The translations under genes were made by a program, and so were the position numbers. From a virus, in IMG/VR virus record IMGVR_UViG_3300001472_000254, positions 1-20,417 of that record: 20,417 bases of DNA. One strand, 5' to 3'. Positions 1,714 through 17,500 of the stretch are shown in pieces. The stretch's first letter is position 1, and the number at the start of each line of letters is the position of its first letter. The notes under the pieces were generated by a model that was not told the DNA's origin, did not search any database, and saw only the letters and a program-made list of their open reading frames with translations.

Positions 1714-1927
1714 CTTTAAATCTCCTTGCTCGTAATATAATTCTATCTAATCGAATCCGACTAGATAATCTTCCTATATGTCCAATAGGTCTTTCGGTCT
1801 CTGCTAATGAAAATATAAATTCTTCATAGGCATTTAGCTTTCTCTTTAAAAACTTATTTTCTTCCAGAGCTTCATTCTTTAAAACTTTCTCTTTTCTGGC
1901 TCTATTTGTTAAAAATAACTTAATCAT
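1679..1927 (-). CDS. Basic hypothetical protein with a possible coiled coil (82 aa)
   Basis: This is an 82-residue Arg/Lys/Glu-rich protein, probably mostly helical. Residues 10-45 ([28 protein letters not shown] and onward) have a heptad-like hydrophobic pattern compatible with a coiled coil. The C-terminal half is arginine-rich ([16 protein letters not shown]), compatible with nucleic-acid binding. The ATG at 1927 overlaps the end of the zinc-ribbon gene by 8 nt, with a G-rich stretch (TAGGGG) eight to nine bases before it. The 3' end overlaps the start of the 77-residue gene by 35 nt. The family is not recognised, and coding status rests on the overlaps and the placement. Confidence 0.6.
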
Positions 1928-2207
1928 ACTTTATACCCCTATTTCTAAGGTAACCATCAATGTAATCCTCTGTATCGTCTTCTTCTAGCACTACAAACGA
2001 ATCTGTTTTCTCGTATACTTTACCCTTTGAACGCCTCTGAATCTTTATCATAGGCTCTCTATGGGCTTTTTTTTCTTCCAAAACAGTCTCAAAAGTTGTG
2101 AATCGCTCATTACAGTCTAAACATTCCCTTCTTCTGCGGATAGCATCAGAAGTCCTTCTAGACTCAACAACTTTACTTCTTTTTGACTGGCACTTTATGC
2201 ACAACAT
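1920..2207 (-). CDS. NrdR-like zinc-ribbon protein lacking the ATP-cone
   Basis: The N-terminus matches the zinc ribbon of NrdR, the bacterial repressor of ribonucleotide reductase genes: C3-x2-C6, then an Arg-rich helix [11 protein letters not shown]29-x2-C32 and the signature ERFTTFE at 34-40. In NrdR this domain binds DNA and is followed by an ATP-cone that senses ATP/dATP. Here only about 55 unrelated residues follow, ending in an acidic stretch ([13 protein letters not shown]), so the nucleotide sensor is absent. I chose the ATG at 2207 because NrdR proteins begin immediately before the first CxxC; a TTG further upstream would add nine residues. The gene overlaps the preceding 49-codon gene by 35 nt. 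It may be a DNA-binding regulator or a decoy of host NrdR, which is inference. Confidence 0.82.
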
Positions 2208-2322
2208 TTTTTCTAAACGAACTTCTCTTGCCAAGTTTCTTTCTCATATTAAGAGGTCGCTTTTTTCTCCTTCGTTTTACTTTTGTTTTTACACTATGTT
2301 TAAAATTAATTTGTCTAGCCAT
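2173..2322 (-). CDS. Very basic small protein (49 aa)
   Basis: This is a 49-residue protein with about half Lys plus Arg, starting [20 protein letters not shown] and ending KVPVKKK. The ATG lies two bases after the stop of the 180-residue gene, and the 3' part overlaps the NrdR-like gene by 35 nt in another frame. There is no strong ribosome site, so coupling with the upstream gene is likely. The charge pattern suggests nucleic-acid binding, but the family is not recognised. The overlap with a well-supported gene makes it possible that part of this frame is fortuitous. Confidence 0.55.
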
Positions 2323-2324
2323 GA

Positions 2325-2867
2325 TTAAAAAGGAATTTTATCATCAAAGGGTATCTGCTGCTCAAACTTAGTAACATGAGCTTCCTTAAATACTTTCTTA
2401 ACTTCATTAATGCCAAACAATGTATCAAGGATTTCTCCAAGCTCATCTAGCGTGTAAATAGGTTGTTCTTTAACTTCTTCTTCATTTAGAATCATTCTTT
2501 TATTTGCCTTGTCTTTTACTATAATAAATCTTGATTTACTTTCAGACTTAGCAACCCAATATTCACCTTTAGGTGGTTGATGACCAGAGTCTCTAGCTTC
2601 TTTATCAAGGGCTAACCAACCCTTCTCAATATTCTTACACCATTTAGCAATTTCTTCTGGCTCTTTATGTGTAACAATAGCTATGTTTAGTTTCTTCTCA
2701 GCACTTCTAAATTTCTTTTGTAACTCTAGGCTAACTAAATCTAACAAGGCTTCTTTTGAGAACCATATTTCTTCCATAGCAATAACTATCTTATCTAATT
2801 TATTTATATAAACTTGAGATAACTTTGCTCTTTTATCATCCTCTTTATCTGTCATTTTATTAACCAT
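2325..2867 (-). CDS. Unknown replication-module protein with SSB-like IPF C-terminal tip (180 aa)
   Basis: This is a 180-residue, mostly helical, charged protein of no recognised family, lying directly after the primase-helicase. It has a Lys/Glu-rich helical first half with LVSLELQKKFRSAEKKLNIAIV and ends in FDDKIPF. That ending is very like the acidic C-terminal tip of bacterial single-strand DNA-binding proteins (DDDIPF), which docks replication and repair partners. Two starts are possible: the ATG at 2867, or an in-frame ATG at 2855 whose ATGA overlaps the primase stop; the second gives 176 residues. Neither has a strong ribosome site. Position and tail suggest a replication accessory or ssDNA-associated role, which is inference. 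Confidence 0.85.
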   Translation of the reverse strand: MVNKMTDKEDDKRAKLSQVYINKLDKIVIAMEEIWFSKEALLDLVSLELQKKFRSAEKKLNIAIVTHKEPEEIAKWCKNIEKGWLALDKEARDSGHQPPKGEYWVAKSESKSRFIIVKDKANKRMILNEEEVKEQPIYTLDELGEILDTLFGINEVKKVFKEAHVTKFEQQIPFDDKIPF

Positions 2868-4684
2868 ATTTTTTCATCCCATATACCGACTAACTCTTTG
2901 TTTTGTAAGGACAGTATTGTCCTAGATAATTTTTGCTGCTTTCTTCTAAGTTCTTTATCTGGGAACTGAGCAAAACTTTTAAATTCTAAATGACTCATTG
3001 TTATAAAGTTTTGCTCACCAACATCAGAGTTTATCCATTTATTTTGACCATTCTCCTCTAAAGAGTTTTTTATAATATCATAAACTAATTTCTGATTCGC
3101 TCCTAGAGCTGGCTCATATATAGGTTTATCTCCAGTTTCAAAGATTAGCTTCTGTAAAGTAACTGAGGTATCAGCAAACAACTGTCTCTTTTCTATCTCT
3201 AAACTAATCATCTCTAATTGCTCTGTATCTTTTTGTTTCTGTACTGATAGATTTACAGTTCCAGAGTGAGAGCAATTAATTGAAGTATCAACACCACCTA
3301 ACAAAGCTGAACTACCTCTCAATCCAGACGCTTCATTTTTACCGCTATGGTGAATAGCTAGTATAGCTGATTTAGTTTGTTCTCTTACAGTATCACAGGC
3401 TGATAAAAACATTCCCATATCGCTTGCAGAATTTTCATCAGAGCCAGAGTTCGATAATGTTCTGGCAATAGTATCAATTACTATAAGTTTAAAATCTTTA
3501 CCAATATTGTGAATTGTATTTATTAATTTATCCAACTGCTCTGGGTCTAAAAAATCTACAGTTGTAGCCAGAACATGAAAGTCAGGGGTCTTTGTTATAT
3601 CATTATGTTTTGCAAGCCATGCTTGTATTCTTTTCTTTAAACCACCAACGCCCTCTGCTGCTATAAATAAAGTTTTACCAGCTCCAGTATCATACCCTTG
3701 CCAGTCAATACTAGAGGAAATAGATAGGCACATATCTATCGCAACAAAAGATTTATAGCTTGCTGGTTGACCATAAATTACTGAGAGTCCGCCTTCTGGT
3801 ATAAGATTTTCAATTAAATAAGTCTGGCTTTTTAATCCCATCAGGTCATTAATTCCCATAGTAGGAAAAACATTTTGAGTAACTTTTTCTGCTGGTTTGG
3901 CTGTTAATATTAATTCTTCTATATCTCCACCAGTATCAATAAAGTCTGATATATCACCCTTATCTGCAACTTTTCCCTCCAATGAGATAAAATGAAGGCT
4001 CTCAGCCTCGCTTAGAAGATGATTTGAGATAGTTTGGGTATGTAAGTACCCAGCAGAATCGTTGTCTGAGATTAAAATTACCCTTCTATCTTTGAAGTAT
4101 TTATTAAGAGAAGGCTTCCAATTCTTGCTACCACCAGAGTTAGTTGTAGCTAAAAAACCAAGAGAGTTTAATTTGTCAGCATCCTTCTCGCCCTCTACTA
4201 TAAATATAGTCTTGTCTTTATCCTCTAATATCTTAGGTAAGTTATAAGGCAATGGCTCTATATCTTTTAAACCCCATACAGTCTTGCCATCCTTAAAATG
4301 ACGCTGTTTAAATGTCTTAGGCTCAAATCTTAAAACTTGGTATGTAACCTCTCCATGTTCGTTTATATAGTTATACTCATTAACTATTTTTGAGCCTAGA
4401 GGTGGTGGAGATACAGGCTTATTATCTATGTTTCTTTCACCGATACCGAACTCATTATAAAGATAGTCCGATAGTTCCCTTCCAGATAAGTTTTTATGTT
4501 TTTGTATTAGGTCTATTAAACCACCACCCTCATTAGCTTCAAAGTCAAACCAAGTAGCATTTCCAAGATTAACTGCCTTAGAATATTTACTACCAAATCT
4601 TAACTCTGAATCTGTAGTGATTTTTGGCTCACCAAATACCTCAGCTGCAACAACCTTTATTGCTTCAATATATCGTTTATCCAT
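2852..4684 (-). CDS. TOPRIM primase / RecA-like (RepA-type) helicase
   Basis: This is a 610-residue replication enzyme. The first ~100 residues resemble the DNA-binding front of phage primases. A TOPRIM domain follows with VEGEKD at 163-168 and the metal-binding ISDNDSAG at 205-212. A RecA-fold ATPase of the RepA/AAA_25 group comes next: Walker A GQPASYKS at 305-312, Walker B LIVID at 400-404 and an LAIHHSGKN motif near 442-450. The C-terminal ~100 residues may be a winged helix. It would unwind the fork and perhaps prime synthesis in the host cytoplasm. A zinc-binding primase domain with paired cysteines is not visible. The start at 4684 has GGGAAAG about 8 nt upstream and overlaps the preceding 35-codon gene by 8 nt. 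Whether primase activity is retained cannot be judged. Confidence 0.92.
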   Translation of the reverse strand: MDKRYIEAIKVVAAEVFGEPKITTDSELRFGSKYSKAVNLGNATWFDFEANEGGGLIDLIQKHKNLSGRELSDYLYNEFGIGERNIDNKPVSPPPLGSKIVNEYNYINEHGEVTYQVLRFEPKTFKQRHFKDGKTVWGLKDIEPLPYNLPKILEDKDKTIFIVEGEKDADKLNSLGFLATTNSGGSKNWKPSLNKYFKDRRVILISDNDSAGYLHTQTISNHLLSEAESLHFISLEGKVADKGDISDFIDTGGDIEELILTAKPAEKVTQNVFPTMGINDLMGLKSQTYLIENLIPEGGLSVIYGQPASYKSFVAIDMCLSISSSIDWQGYDTGAGKTLFIAAEGVGGLKKRIQAWLAKHNDITKTPDFHVLATTVDFLDPEQLDKLINTIHNIGKDFKLIVIDTIARTLSNSGSDENSASDMGMFLSACDTVREQTKSAILAIHHSGKNEASGLRGSSALLGGVDTSINCSHSGTVNLSVQKQKDTEQLEMISLEIEKRQLFADTSVTLQKLIFETGDKPIYEPALGANQKLVYDIIKNSLEENGQNKWINSDVGEQNFITMSHLEFKSFAQFPDKELRRKQQKLSRTILSLQNKELVGIWDEKIWLIK

Positions 4685-4784
4685 TAATATCTTTCCCAGT
4701 TAGTATTAATATTGCTAGTCTTACAAATAAAGCATAGCCAAAAAAGCCAAGCATAAATAAAATTAAATAGTGTTCTAGTTTCAT
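4677..4784 (-). CDS. Tiny single-pass membrane protein (35 aa)
   Basis: This is a 35-residue protein, MKLEHYLILF then a hydrophobic stretch to about residue 28, then TGKDING. One transmembrane helix (about residues 6-28) fills almost the whole sequence. The ATG shares its A with the TAA of the methyltransferase gene, a GGAG motif lies about eight bases upstream, and the stop overlaps the primase-helicase start by 8 nt. This coupling is strong evidence of translation. The role is unknown. A single-span peptide in a replication operon might anchor replication proteins to the membrane or act on host membrane processes such as superinfection. Confidence 0.65.
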   Translation of the reverse strand: MKLEHYLILFMLGFFGYALFVRLAILILTGKDING

Positions 4785-5347
4785 TATATCCACTCCAACT
4801 CAGTTCTATCTTTACGATTTTTTCCGCTCCAAACAAACCAAGCATAAGGAGTAGTTCCGCTTCTACCTTTAGGAATATCCTCGCCATTCTTCCATAAGGT
4901 TTGTCTTTCCGAAAAGACATAAACTCTTGATGGTTTGTTTTCTAAAAAGAAAGGTCTACGTTTTTTGCTTTCCAAGAAAGCCAACCTAAGAAACATAGCA
5001 ACTTTACCCTCTGATAATAAAGACATCTCAAAGGCATGCTTAACAAACTCAAAAGCTAAATTAAAAGGTGGGTTAGTTATTATATTATGTGGCATATCAG
5101 GTGTGTAACTTGTCTTTAAAAAATCAACTCCACCTATAATATTATCATAACCTCTATCAATTAAATCAGTAGATAAAACTTCATGTCCTTTATCTAAGAA
5201 CACATCAGAAATATCACCTCTACCAGCTGCACATTCCCAGACTGAACCAGAGAAAAATTCTCTGTCATAAAGAGCTTCAACACAACTCTTAGGTGTAGGG
5301 TAATAGTCATGTTCAGCCCTACTATTATTCGATACAAATTTCTGCAT
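4784..5347 (-). CDS. DNA adenine methyltransferase-like protein (187 aa)
   Basis: This is a small class I SAM-dependent DNA methyltransferase. The sequence shows DYYPTP at residues 14-19, a SAM-binding loop ECAAGRGD at 38-45, an acidic STDLIDRGY strand end at 59-67 and the catalytic NPPF at 92-95. The NPPF motif indicates modification of an exocyclic amino group, most often N6-adenine. The protein is short, with no obvious target-recognition domain, like other orphan phage methyltransferases. No cognate restriction enzyme lies beside it. The start has AAGGA nine bases upstream within the preceding 48-codon gene. Likely roles are protection from host restriction or marking of phage DNA; the recognition site cannot be read from the sequence. 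Confidence 0.88.
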   Translation of the reverse strand: MQKFVSNNSRAEHDYYPTPKSCVEALYDREFFSGSVWECAAGRGDISDVFLDKGHEVLSTDLIDRGYDNIIGGVDFLKTSYTPDMPHNIITNPPFNLAFEFVKHAFEMSLLSEGKVAMFLRLAFLESKKRRPFFLENKPSRVYVFSERQTLWKNGEDIPKGRSGTTPYAWFVWSGKNRKDRTELEWI

Positions 5348-5471
5348 TTAAGTTTTTCCTTACAAGTACATATTCATAGTCAATATCAAAGACATAGTTA
5401 CCAAAAGCAACATAGCCCAAAATAAATAAATTAACGCAAATCTCTTTCCAATAACTCTTTCTTTTTCTCAT
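5325..5471 (-). CDS. Possible small membrane protein (48 aa)
   Basis: This is a 48-codon frame starting MRKRKSYWKE, with a hydrophobic segment at about residues 12-28 (CVNLFILGYVAFGNYVF) after a positively charged N-terminus, the usual pattern of an inner-membrane single-span protein. It overlaps the methyltransferase start by 23 nt. There is no clear ribosome binding site; the preceding bases are C-rich and belong to the structured element at 5475-5534. It fills an otherwise unexplained gap and mirrors the 35-residue membrane protein downstream of the methyltransferase, but coding status is uncertain. Confidence 0.45.
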   Translation of the reverse strand: MRKRKSYWKEICVNLFILGYVAFGNYVFDIDYEYVLVRKNLNAEICIE

Positions 5472-5474
5472 ACA

Positions 5475-5534
5475 GGGTTGGGGGTGAGTAAGGTGTAGGG
5501 GAGAGTTAGATTCTTCGCTAACAACACCTTACTC
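5475..5534. repeat. Nested hairpin with adjoining G-rich tract
   Basis: Two perfect 11-base arms, GAGTAAGGTGT at 5486-5496 and its reverse complement at 5524-5534, enclose a 27-base loop. Inside the loop a second 5-base stem (GTTAG at 5505-5509, CTAAC at 5518-5522) can form. G-runs GGGTTGGGGG (5475-5484) and GGGG (5498-5501) stand out in this AT-rich genome. The element lies in the largest gap of the replication block, after the ssDNA-binding protein gene. On the minus strand no T-run follows, so it is not a classical intrinsic terminator. An RNA regulatory structure, replication origin or protein-binding site are options. Confidence 0.6.
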
Positions 5535-5565
5535 TAACTAAAACCAACCAGTATGGCTTTAGCTA

Positions 5566-6174
5566 TTAGAAGTCGAGGTCATCATCAAAGTCAGGCTCTG
5601 CTGCTTTTACAGGCTCTGGCTTTTTCTCCTCAACTGTTTCTACCTCACCTAACATTGTTGCTGGTCTTTCTCTCCAATCAACAATAGATACGTTAGGTAC
5701 TTTAATTTTATTTGCCTTGCCGAACTTAATTTCTTTCATTCCGTCAAAATGGACAACTGGTATCAAATCTCCTTTTTCTTTTTCTAAAGAAAGGTAAGAG
5801 TCATGCAATGCACCTAACTCAATTAATACTGCTTTTGAGCTAGAGCCGAAATTTACCATGCCTAAATCCTTATTAAATAGATTGAATTTAACGAATTGTT
5901 TATGGTCATCATTAGGCTTATTTGGTGCATTTGATTCGCCATATAAGGTAGTTACAACAGAAGGTGGGCTTACTGAAAAATCAGCCCAGCCTACATGAAG
6001 GGTTTTAAAATCGACATAGGCTTTAAAGTCAGCAACTCTATCCTCAGTCTCCCTCTCCTCTGTTTCTTTGTTATATATTACTGAGGTATATCTACCTTCT
6101 TTTGCATTAAAGTTCAGTCTATCCCAAACTTCTCCATTATTACTTTGTTGTTCTTCTGGTAATCCAAACGACAT
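5566..6174 (-). CDS. Probable phage single-stranded DNA-binding protein (202 aa)
   Basis: This is a 202-residue protein. The central part is rich in beta-type segments (WDRLNFNAKEGRYTSVIY, FKAYVDFKTLHVGWADF, FVKFNLFNKDLGMVNFG) and could form an OB-like fold. A Pro/Glu-rich linker (about 177-192) then leads to an acidic tip DFDDDLDF at 195-202. The layout of core, flexible linker and acidic aromatic-ended tail is that of SSB proteins, although the tip differs from the classical DDDIPF. The gene follows a RecE-like exonuclease and precedes the methyltransferase and primase-helicase. The start has AAGGAG with a 6-nt spacer. I do not recognise a named family, so ssDNA binding is inferred from tail and context. 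A recombination annealing role is an alternative. Confidence 0.85.
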   Translation of the reverse strand: MSFGLPEEQQSNNGEVWDRLNFNAKEGRYTSVIYNKETEERETEDRVADFKAYVDFKTLHVGWADFSVSPPSVVTTLYGESNAPNKPNDDHKQFVKFNLFNKDLGMVNFGSSSKAVLIELGALHDSYLSLEKEKGDLIPVVHFDGMKEIKFGKANKIKVPNVSIVDWRERPATMLGEVETVEEKKPEPVKAAEPDFDDDLDF

Positions 6175-6229: not shown

Positions 6230-7078
6230 CTAGAATATAGTAGGCTCAGTCAATTTTATAAAATATGGTGGTATATCAATTTGCTGTATCTCTGTATCAT
6301 AGCTAGGGAAACTGCCAGTCTTTTGACATTCGCTGTAAGTTTGCAATGCTTTTTCAACAACAGCATCCCCCTCTATGATAGATTTATCGCCTAACTCAAA
6401 TATACTAAAAGCATAAGGTGGCTCTTTTTCTACAGCTAAGAAATAGAACTTAGCAACCTTTCTTCCTGTTGCCTGTTCCCAACATCTTCTATAAAAACTT
6501 TCTTGTATATGATAACCAAAGTTTCCACAGGCTCTTTCAAAACCTTCTTTGGAAGCATCAACAGTTGTTTTTAAGTCAATGATAATATCCATACTTGGGT
6601 CTTTCTTTGATGGTCTAACTTTATCTGGTCTGCATTTTAATTTAATGCCTGTTTCTTCGTCTATGCAAAATGCAGATACTTCTGATTTAGCGTCTTGATG
6701 ATACAATAATTTATTAACTTGAGTGCTGTTAGATACGGCATCTTTGATTCGCAATACATCCTCATAATCACCATCAGGTAAAACAACTTGCTCAGACGTT
6801 TTATTGGCAATAGCTTCTTTATACTCTTTTTGCCTTCTATCCTTACCACCTCTTATAACTAACTTCTTAAATTTCTCAGGCTCAAGTATAGCTATGTGAG
6901 AAGCTGTTCCTTTATCAAAGTATGGTTTGCTTTCTTGTGGTGGTCTGTTTTTAAAATGGTTAGGGGTTTTAGTTGCTAGTGTTTTTAGGCTAGATGAACC
7001 TATAGCTTCATCACCTACACCAGTATGATAATCTTCATTTGTCATATCGTCTATTACGCTTGGGTATTTTATCTTCAT
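6230..7078 (-). CDS. RecE/exonuclease VIII-like PD-(D/E)XK exonuclease
   Basis: This is a 282-residue nuclease. The N-terminus YHTGVGDEAIGSSSLKTLA resembles the start of RecE-like phage exonucleases (Y-H...S-x-S-x-L). The catalytic core is visible as RPD at about 150-152, IIDLKTT at about 166-172 (the D-x-K pair) and the Q-x3-Y helix in HIQESFY. These proteins resect double-stranded ends to give 3' single strands for annealing recombination, usually with a RecT-type partner. Here the next gene encodes the probable ssDNA-binding protein. I chose the ATG at 7078 because AAGGAG lies six bases upstream; a TTG one codon earlier would be too close to it. It is the first gene of the replication block, facing the plus-strand gene at 7300. 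Confidence 0.88.
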   Translation of the reverse strand: MKIKYPSVIDDMTNEDYHTGVGDEAIGSSSLKTLATKTPNHFKNRPPQESKPYFDKGTASHIAILEPEKFKKLVIRGGKDRRQKEYKEAIANKTSEQVVLPDGDYEDVLRIKDAVSNSTQVNKLLYHQDAKSEVSAFCIDEETGIKLKCRPDKVRPSKKDPSMDIIIDLKTTVDASKEGFERACGNFGYHIQESFYRRCWEQATGRKVAKFYFLAVEKEPPYAFSIFELGDKSIIEGDAVVEKALQTYSECQKTGSFPSYDTEIQQIDIPPYFIKLTEPTIF

Positions 7079-7299
7079 CAATATCTCCTTAATTAGACAG
7101 GGGAAATTGGCAGTTTAAATATTTGTGATTGCCTTCTTTCCGACTCAGATAAAAACATGATTCGAAAATTGTGCAAAATTATTTTTGAATCAGAAATATT
7201 TTTTGGAGTTATAAACAGCTTATCAACAACTAATGTAAAAAGGGCTATAGACTATTTTTAGAATCAAAGTAGGCTAGTGTTTCATTTGGAGGAAAGAAG
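7079..7299. promoter_or_regulatory. Divergent intergenic region, probable control region
   Basis: About 220 bp of AT-rich DNA separate the minus-strand exonuclease gene from the plus-strand gene at 7300, so promoters for both directions are expected here. Weak candidates: on the minus strand TTGATA (7226-7221), 17 bases, then AAAAAT (7203-7198); on the plus strand TTGAAT (7185-7190), 19 bases, then TATAAA (7210-7215). A near-perfect inverted repeat with 11-base arms (one mismatch) spans 7158-7192, overlapping the plus -35, and a further GAATCA occurs at 7261-7266, as expected of an operator. No convincing coding frame was seen. Confidence 0.5.
7158..7192. repeat. Imperfect inverted repeat TGATTC...GAATCA, possible operator
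   Basis: Arms TGATTCGAAAA (7158-7168) and TTTTTGAATCA (7182-7192) pair at ten of eleven positions across a 13-base AT-rich spacer. It sits in the divergent control region between early-type genes and the lone plus-strand gene, overlapping a possible plus-strand -35. Such dyads are typical binding sites of dimeric regulators. Chance occurrence in AT-rich DNA remains possible. Confidence 0.35.
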
Positions 7300-16653: not shown

Positions 16654-17024
16654 TATTTTTTAACTCCAGTTTTAAGCTCATAAGTCCTAAGTGTTCCTAA
16701 TCCTAAAACTCCAAACAGTACAGGCATCATGACGGACATATCAGCTTGCGGTATATCAATATCAAATATAGCAAGAATCGGAGAGAAAAAATACTGCAAA
16801 CTAAAAGATAATACTAAAATCCAACAAAGAGTAGGTCTCCACATTGATTGAAATAAATTAGAACTCTTAGCATCTTGTAAGTTAATTTGTGCTTGAGCTT
16901 TATCTATATCATTAATAGAAGCTACTAACTCAGATTCAACTTTAACTTTTAAATCTTTGTCTGGAATAAATTTATCTAATATTTTAGATACATTTCCTAT
17001 TAAAGACGTTGCTAGTAAACTCAT
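16653..17024 (-). CDS. Holin, 3TM (gene-transfer-release) type
   Basis: This is a 123-residue protein with the hallmark stretch AQAQINLQDAKSSNLFQSMW-RP at ~43-64, followed by a hydrophobic helix (~65-88), a second helix (~97-111) and a TLRTYEL end. This pattern is that of the Holin_3TM family found in marine phages and gene transfer agents. It would form holes in the inner membrane at the end of infection. The N-terminal 40 residues are amphipathic. The start overlaps the nuclease stop (ATGA) with GAGAG-type purines upstream, and the stop overlaps the gp10-like gene. No endolysin was recognised next to it. Confidence 0.87.
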   Translation of the reverse strand: MSLLATSLIGNVSKILDKFIPDKDLKVKVESELVASINDIDKAQAQINLQDAKSSNLFQSMWRPTLCWILVLSFSLQYFFSPILAIFDIDIPQADMSVMMPVLFGVLGLGTLRTYELKTGVKK

Positions 17025-17500
17025 AAGTAACTCTCTTTATCTAATAATTTTATATTTTTTAAACACCTTTCAAAAGATTCTTTAGTAGATTCTTTGTTTT
17101 CAAAATGAGCTTCTGATATTTTTGTCGTACATCCTGTTATTTCTTCAACTGGCTTAAATATAACAACATTTTCTCTAAGAGCTGCCAAAGCTACAATGTC
17201 AGTATCTTCTTTAGTTAATTTTCTTTTAACCTTTCCAACGGAAGTTGAAAAATTATAACGAGGTCTGCCACCTTTAGCAGAATGTTTATCAGTAGTTCCA
17301 GAAGATTTGACTTGTAGTCTTATAGGTTTATTTAAAATATTAACTATAATATCATATCCCTCTGCTTCCACTAAAGAAGTATGATAGCCTAGTTTTTCTA
17401 ATTCAAAACAAACCATTAATTCACCAACTCTGCCTAACTGCTTGTTGTTATTACCCAAACCATTTCCCAAGACTGGTAGCAACAGCTGCGGATATTCCAC
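17021..17500 (-). CDS. PD-(D/E)XK endonuclease-like protein in lysis cluster (159 aa)
   Basis: This is a nuclease-fold protein. Visible are LGRVGE at ~22-27 (E27), GYDIIV at ~48-53 (D50) and RLQVKSS at ~61-67 (Q63, K65), followed by RPRYNFS. This E...D...Q-x-K arrangement is typical of the PDDEXK_5-like group, which includes intron-encoded endonucleases and resolvase-like proteins. The frame begins with GTG at 17500, overlapping the upstream membrane-protein gene by 50 nt; an in-frame TTG at 17458 (8-nt overlap) would also keep the whole domain and may be the true start. The gene sits between two lysis-type membrane proteins, an odd place for a nuclease. A homing or anti-competitor function is conceivable. 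The fold is fairly sure, the role is not. Confidence 0.78.
   Translation of the reverse strand: MEYPQLLLPVLGNGLGNNNKQLGRVGELMVCFELEKLGYHTSLVEAEGYDIIVNILNKPIRLQVKSSGTTDKHSAKGGRPRYNFSTSVGKVKRKLTKEDTDIVALAALRENVVIFKPVEEITGCTTKISEAHFENKESTKESFERCLKNIKLLDKESYL

Follow-up and report, generated by a model that had tools for sequence, protein, structure and literature searches.

The window analysed here is the whole of a 20,417-base virus record (IMGVR_UViG_3300001472_000254, positions 1 to 20,417), with a G+C content of 32-35%. Two proteins of its replication module end in tails that recall single-stranded DNA-binding proteins (SSBs), and the shorter of them, of 180 aa, belongs to a family in which a bacterial-type SSB tip is conserved on a body unlike that of an SSB. 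We favour, at about even confidence, the reading that this protein is an adaptor that would give the phage replisome a hook for the host partners of SSB. Both proteins were read as open reading frames (ORFs) on the minus strand; at the same coordinates the plus strand gives stop-filled frames. The first-pass annotation had reported that a 202-residue protein at 5566-6174 ends in DFDDDLDF and a 180-residue protein at 2325-2867 in FDDKIPF, and both endings were confirmed: the 180-aa protein terminates in ...KFEQQIPFDDKIPF and the 202-aa protein in ...AAEPDFDDDLDF. Among the window ORFs of at least 60 aa, only these two have an acidic tail with F or a P[FW] end. The features concerned are as follows.

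2325..2867, minus strand: 180-aa tip-bearing protein, proposed replisome adaptor (ORF, family of 121 unique members, AlphaFold model)
2328..2345, minus strand: SSB-type C-terminal tip DDKIPF, on a tail (residues 173-180) with a predicted local distance difference test score (pLDDT) below 50 (ORF, model, family counts)
5566..6174, minus strand: 202-aa probable phage single-stranded DNA (ssDNA)-binding protein (ORF, family alignment, model, structural matches, operon slot)
5569..5649, minus strand: disordered acidic C-terminal tail (residues 176-202) ending DFDDDLDF (pLDDT below 50; tail type shared by 74/84 unique relatives)

Relatives were collected by scans, and L-numbers (L004, L126 and others) denote their loci or contigs. 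For the 180-aa family, 210 loci gave 121 unique members with an intact C-terminus, and further scans and a 30-member profile were used. Small proteins truncated by a contig end (e.g., L123) were dropped before counting, and the last 150 residues served to merge duplicates. The first tip pattern required an acidic residue or Asn two places before I/L and was found in 104/121 members. Since 5 of the 17 misses plainly end in EIPF, ELPF or DIPF, a looser pattern was adopted, [ILVM]P[FWY] followed by no more than one further residue. The results showed that 109/121 unique members carry the relaxed tip, which is exactly terminal in 105. The background was 2848 other unique ORFs of at least 100 aa from the same loci, called mechanically with shadow ORFs included. 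Only seven of these end in the same tip, namely four CRP-type SSBs, the SSB of L177 and two helicases; the five SSBs are gp2.5-like phage SSBs. Chance tails were ruled out by this conservation together with the background counts.

The tip is retained though the remaining sequence of the family diverges to less than 30% identity. When the family was clustered at 60% identity (n = 41), 35 clusters were all-tip, five tipless and one mixed. Columns -3, -2 and -1 of the 105 exact-tip members are selected by definition, while -4, -5 and -6 are free; position -5 is Asp in 100 of these members, and entropy drops from 3.4-3.7 bits at -14 to -8 to 0.35 bits at -5. The tail length and the linker vary freely while the tip stays, and L013 has about 20 extra residues ahead of it. 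At the tip, Pro is encoded by each of its four codons and Phe by either of its two, and therefore the protein sequence is the conserved thing. In the window, the tip codons (2328-2345) lie upstream of the next minus-strand gene (1920-2234) without overlap. The 180-aa protein thus has an end of the bacterial SSB C-terminal (SSB-Ct) type: an [acidic]-x-[ILV]-P-[FW] motif, placed on a flexible tail and conserved in homologues.

Judged by its model, the body of the 180-aa protein is not that of an SSB. The AlphaFold model (pLDDT 81) has helices at residues 7-35, 47-65 and 70-93, followed by a small alpha/beta part at 103-159. An SSB with an oligonucleotide/oligosaccharide-binding (OB) fold was ruled out for this protein, as the model is not OB-like. 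At E 0.001 Foldseek matched nothing in the PDB, and the VIA structural matches (Z up to 8.4) fall mainly on helical residues 2-97, in common bundles. Among viral predicted structures in BFVD, 13 match at E 0.001 or better, 12 of them without a functional name. None of the 21 family members scanned has a Pfam family, PF00436 included, and PHROGs gave one marginal match, in 1/21 members. Two members were scanned with NCBIfam and with PADLOC, and neither gave a match; the idea of a defence or anti-defence family was dropped on the PADLOC result. When 50,697 phage records were searched by tblastn with four different members of the family, the same 6 records were found each time, and none was found with the window's own protein or with an L126-type member. 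A scan of bacterial genomes detected no prophage copies, and hosts are known from phage records only.

The 202-aa family was collected by a scan with a first alignment (50 loci) and later aligned as 25 members down to 25% identity. A tail was counted as acidic and Phe-ended when at least three of its last 8 residues were acidic and F occurred among the last 3. Such a tail is present in 74/84 unique members and in 29/2824 background ORFs, and it is kept while the linker shifts from charged to Ala/Pro-rich in the 25-member alignment. Loss of the final residues in homologues had been set beforehand as the result that would speak against the tails of either protein; they are conserved in both families. 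The two tips had also been taken as variants of one SSB tip. This holds for the 180-aa protein, whose tip is of the true bacterial DDxIPF type, and does not hold for the 202-aa protein. T7 gp2.5 has an acidic tail with a terminal F, and the acidic ...DEF type of tip in the 202-aa family resembles that tail. SSBs of the window type end mostly in ..DEF, ..DDF or ..LDF, and the bacterial I/L-P-F tip is found in 0/72 (67 + 5) of those paired with a small protein.

In its model (pLDDT 69.6), the 202-aa protein is rich in beta strands and has a single long helix. Foldseek again gave no PDB match at E 0.001. The best VIA match was 9teh_I, a chain of the phiC31 integrase-recombination directionality factor (RDF) synapse (Z 7.5, rmsd 4.8, 146 residues aligned; Z below 8 is weak), followed by the RB69 gp32 core at Z 5.6 and many OB-folds of SSB and RPA at Z 3.5-4.9, which are also weak. 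The neighbour 9teh_I hints at a possible common fold of a phage recombination directionality factor and this SSB-like family. The fold prediction suggested by the first-pass annotation as a search for OB-folds was answered differently for the two proteins, with weak OB/SSB matches for the 202-aa protein and none of that kind for the helical 180-aa protein. Neither the 202-aa protein nor any of its 25 aligned relatives (25/25) has a Pfam family, and no PF00436 OB domain was detected in them. PHROGs gave only a weak match to phrog_9528, in 10/25 members; phrog_112 was not matched, and hhalign against the phrog_112 members found here returned a probability of 0.1%. In other phages that share the window's gene order, gp2.5-like SSBs of phrog_112 occupy the position of the 202-aa gene. 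From its position, its tail and the weak structural matches, the 202-aa protein is most likely the phage's own SSB, predicted to bind ssDNA.

Of the SSB-like loci with sufficient downstream sequence, most also contain a gene for a relative of the 180-aa protein. In 85 unique cases with both genes, the tip was on the small protein only in 74, on the SSB only in 5, on both in 1 and on neither in 5 (Fisher test, p 4e-5, kinship ignored). A strict rule of one tip per phage was rejected, as L176/L177 carry two and five unique cases carry none. The Roseobacter phages CRP-811, -821, -823 and -831 and contig L137 have the gene order of the window. Their gp2.5-like SSB ends in DDALPF or DDDIPW, and their small protein is tipless, ending in GLFEHD, GLFEQS or similar. 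In L176/L177 the tip is on both the small protein and the SSB, and in L169/L170 the SSB is of the window type (ending DDMEF) and the small protein carries DDPIPF. Phages of the L111/L126 type have a second gp2.5-like SSB, ending in EDDVF, EDDMF or DEDVF(A/K), and their small protein keeps GDEIPF or similar.

An unrooted tree was built from 67 small proteins with the last 12 residues excluded. CRP-831 joins L176/L177 (support 96/60), and these together with L169/L170 form a firm clade (100/98). On the tree, the SSB tip requires one change and the tip state of the small protein four. A natural reading of this single clade would be that the tip passed from the small protein to both proteins and then to the SSB only. 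Two AAA_25/RepA-type helicases with PHROGs matches also end in an SSB-like manner, L048:8690-10966(+) in SDDMPF and L097:2-1153(+) in NDVPF. The small protein of L097 carries the tip as well, and the L048 contig stops 373 bases past the helicase.

The genes around the pair belong to replication and recombination. Transcription proceeds from an exonuclease VIII-like nuclease through the 202-aa protein, a DNA methyltransferase and a Toprim + AAA_25 helicase to the 180-aa protein. The neighbouring features are as follows.

2852..4684, minus strand: Toprim + AAA_25 (RepA-like) primase/helicase, sharing 16 bases with the start of the 180-aa gene (PHROGs/Pfam matches)
4784..5347, minus strand: DNA methyltransferase, phrog_799 (PHROGs match)
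6230..7081, minus strand: PD-(D/E)XK exonuclease, exonuclease VIII-like (phrog_412, E 1.4e-77; PF12684)

The last of these matched the NCBIfam exodeoxyribonuclease VIII model below the cut-off of that model. Downstream of the 180-aa gene, 1920-2234 (-) encodes a 104-aa protein with an NrdR-type zinc ribbon (PF22811, E 6e-15), for which no match to the remainder of NrdR was reported; the nearest relatives likewise have an ORF of this type after their 180-aa gene. Elsewhere in the window, a PD-(D/E)XK endonuclease-like protein at 17021-17500 (-) (PDDEXK_5, slightly under the Pfam cut-off) adjoins a holin gene.

The genes that accompany the tip-bearing protein were compared in 26 related records, possibly fragments, in which polymerase, SSB, helicase, exonuclease and integrase domains were counted. 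The tip persists beside two SSB types without detectable mutual similarity, namely the window type and the phrog_112 gp2.5-like type. The helicase beside it is likewise of two types, AAA_25 in 25/26 records and a different helicase family in L111/L126. The exonucleases that accompany it are of two types or more, with PF12684 in 20/26 records and a phrog_10230-like type in some others. Because the SSB, helicase and exonuclease vary in type while the tip stays, a constant partner is more likely to be a host protein than a phage protein. No DNA polymerase of family A, B or C and no bacterial-type SSB (PF00436) was detected in the 26 records (0/26 each), and the same models detect these proteins in control genomes. 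According to the available excerpt of PMC5872125, DnaG, chi, PriA and ExoI bind this SSB-tip motif, and DnaG forms a salt bridge to the carboxylate of the terminal Phe and offers a basic rim to the acidic residues. An excerpt of PMC11981726, consulted on DDDIPF, deals with host DinG.

The adaptor reading brings these observations together. The 202-aa SSB would coat phage ssDNA, and its acidic, Phe-ended tail would probably serve its own DNA groove and phage partners. The 180-aa adaptor may sit near the phage helicase or the SSB, and its flexible tail, ending in a copied bacterial SSB tip, would supply in trans what the phage SSB lacks. This would bring host proteins that bind SSB to phage DNA, the likeliest candidates being Pol III chi, DnaG primase or PriA. 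We propose that an adaptor supplies the hook because these phages seem to be without a DNA polymerase of their own and their coating protein is without the bacterial tip, and because precisely this motif is bound by host DnaG, chi, PriA and ExoI. Of the options in the first-pass annotation, a phage SSB plus an SSB mimic that hijacks host partners fits best, given the conserved tips, the OB/SSB-like model of the 202-aa protein (with weak scores) and the position of both genes near the exonuclease and the replicative helicase. The mimicry by the 180-aa protein is confined to the tip and does not extend to the body, which is no OB-fold. More tentatively, and with somewhat less than even confidence, we suggest that the function of SSB is split in these phages: coating would lie with a phage SSB that has a private tip, and host recruitment with an adaptor that has the copied bacterial one. 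The hook would then be a movable module, shifted between the adaptor, the SSB (CRP roseophages) and the helicase (L048, L097).

Several observations weigh against the adaptor. Four unique members (L026:11234-11779, L023:11328-11879, L018:11174-11764 and L083:1131-1676, all on the plus strand) end in DDDIPWN or DDDIPWG, and the extra residue after the tip would displace the terminal carboxylate that is read by SSB pockets. In four lineages neither protein has the tip (L131; L150; L155/L159; and the apparently frameshifted L202). In L150:5989-6552(+), the small protein ends in DDELDF, almost the tip of the window's own SSB-like protein, instead of DDEIPF. The small proteins of L167 (in the cluster of L155/L159) and L187 (ending EIPL) are tipless too, and no SSB was found at these loci. 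The branch that unites CRP with L176 is not firm (96/60), and the tip-on-SSB state, hence the proposal that the tip has moved, rests on one clade. The 26 records may be fragmentary, and divergent polymerases could escape detection. Finally, the SSB-type tip of HK620 binds the phage protein Sak4, and a phage partner is therefore possible.

A phage partner is the core of the alternative that survives best, although we consider it doubtful. Here the tip would recruit a phage helicase or exonuclease, or the phage SSB through its groove, and the pair would form a self-contained two-part ssDNA-handling system. In the available excerpt of PMC5928155, the HK620 SSB tip NDYPPF is required for loading Sak4, and exonuclease-like and helicase genes adjoin the pair in most neighbourhoods examined. 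However, each of the candidate phage partners (SSB, helicase and exonuclease) comes in two or more families, and the tip is kept throughout.

It is less probable still that the 180-aa protein is a decoy, whose tip would fill the SSB-Ct pockets of host proteins harmful to phage DNA (ExoI, RecQ/RecJ, RecO) and inhibit rather than recruit them. Borne by a non-SSB body, the tip would be a competitor for these pockets, and it is near-identical to the DDDIPF of host SSB. Yet the gene is placed constantly in the replication module beside the helicase, the defence library of PADLOC gave no match, and in the CRP clade it is the DNA-coating protein that bears the tip, a place from which it would recruit and not block.

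That the 202-aa protein is a recombination directionality factor and not an SSB is very unlikely. The top VIA match is to the phiC31 integrase-RDF synapse chain, and small serine resolvases occur in near relatives of the window; a Z below 8 may, however, reflect a common arrangement only, and the hhalign profile comparison with phiC31 gp3 gave a probability of 0.2%. The large serine integrase domain PF07508 was found in 1/26 records and the serine resolvase domain in 5/26, yet the 202-aa gene is widespread in the set, and its slot is otherwise occupied by gp2.5-like SSBs. The small serine recombinases of the near relatives are about 255 aa long (L004:10496-11260(-), L006:8865-9632(-)), and four of the five records with a resolvase domain are of the window's own clade.

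Least probable of all is the reading of the 180-aa protein as a packaging protein, a terminase small subunit or another, with an incidental tip. One BFVD match bears the name Terminase small subunit (A0A6J5NZ37, E 3e-6) and some genomes place the 180-aa gene between helicase and terminase genes. However, no function is named for the remaining 12 close BFVD matches, the small gene of CRP-831 and CRP-821 is followed by a PAPS reductase gene, and L111 and L126, on which the absence of this role in the family was judged, encode a distinct terminase small subunit beside it (phrog_1482, E about 1e-32; a weaker one in L091).

The proposed adaptor and the probable SSB can be compared with several known systems. 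The 202-aa protein is like T7 gp2.5/phrog_112 in its operon slot, where CRP and L126-type phages have phrog_112, and in its acidic, Phe-ended tail, and it differs in showing neither a match nor a profile similarity to phrog_112. The tip of the 180-aa protein is like the bacterial SSB-Ct (DDDIPF; excerpt of PMC5872125) in its acidic residues, I/L, invariant P and terminal F, and in a tail that is disordered in the model, whereas the carrier differs, with no OB-fold in the model and no PF00436 match. The HK620 SSB and Sak4 (excerpt of PMC5928155) likewise form a phage replication/recombination module in which a partner is brought in through an SSB-type tip; in that phage, however, the SSB itself carries the tip and recruits a phage protein, while in the window a separate protein carries it. 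Recruitment by an SSB tip has hitherto been known as a property of SSBs, phage SSBs included, and no report of a conserved non-SSB phage protein with such a tip was found in the open-access literature. If the adaptor reading is true, a carrier acting in trans, together with a clade that has the tip on its SSB, would mean that the hook is separable from DNA coating, and it would account for the borrowing of host enzymes by phages that use a foreign SSB and have no polymerase of the common families. The module of CRP-822-type roseophages shares the gene order and the small-protein family, and differs from the window in having the tip on the SSB and not on the small protein; the available excerpt of its description (PMC12629253) names the SSB and mentions neither the tip nor the small protein. 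The isolated phages CRP-811 to -831, set against their tip-on-adaptor relatives, would provide a small testable system.

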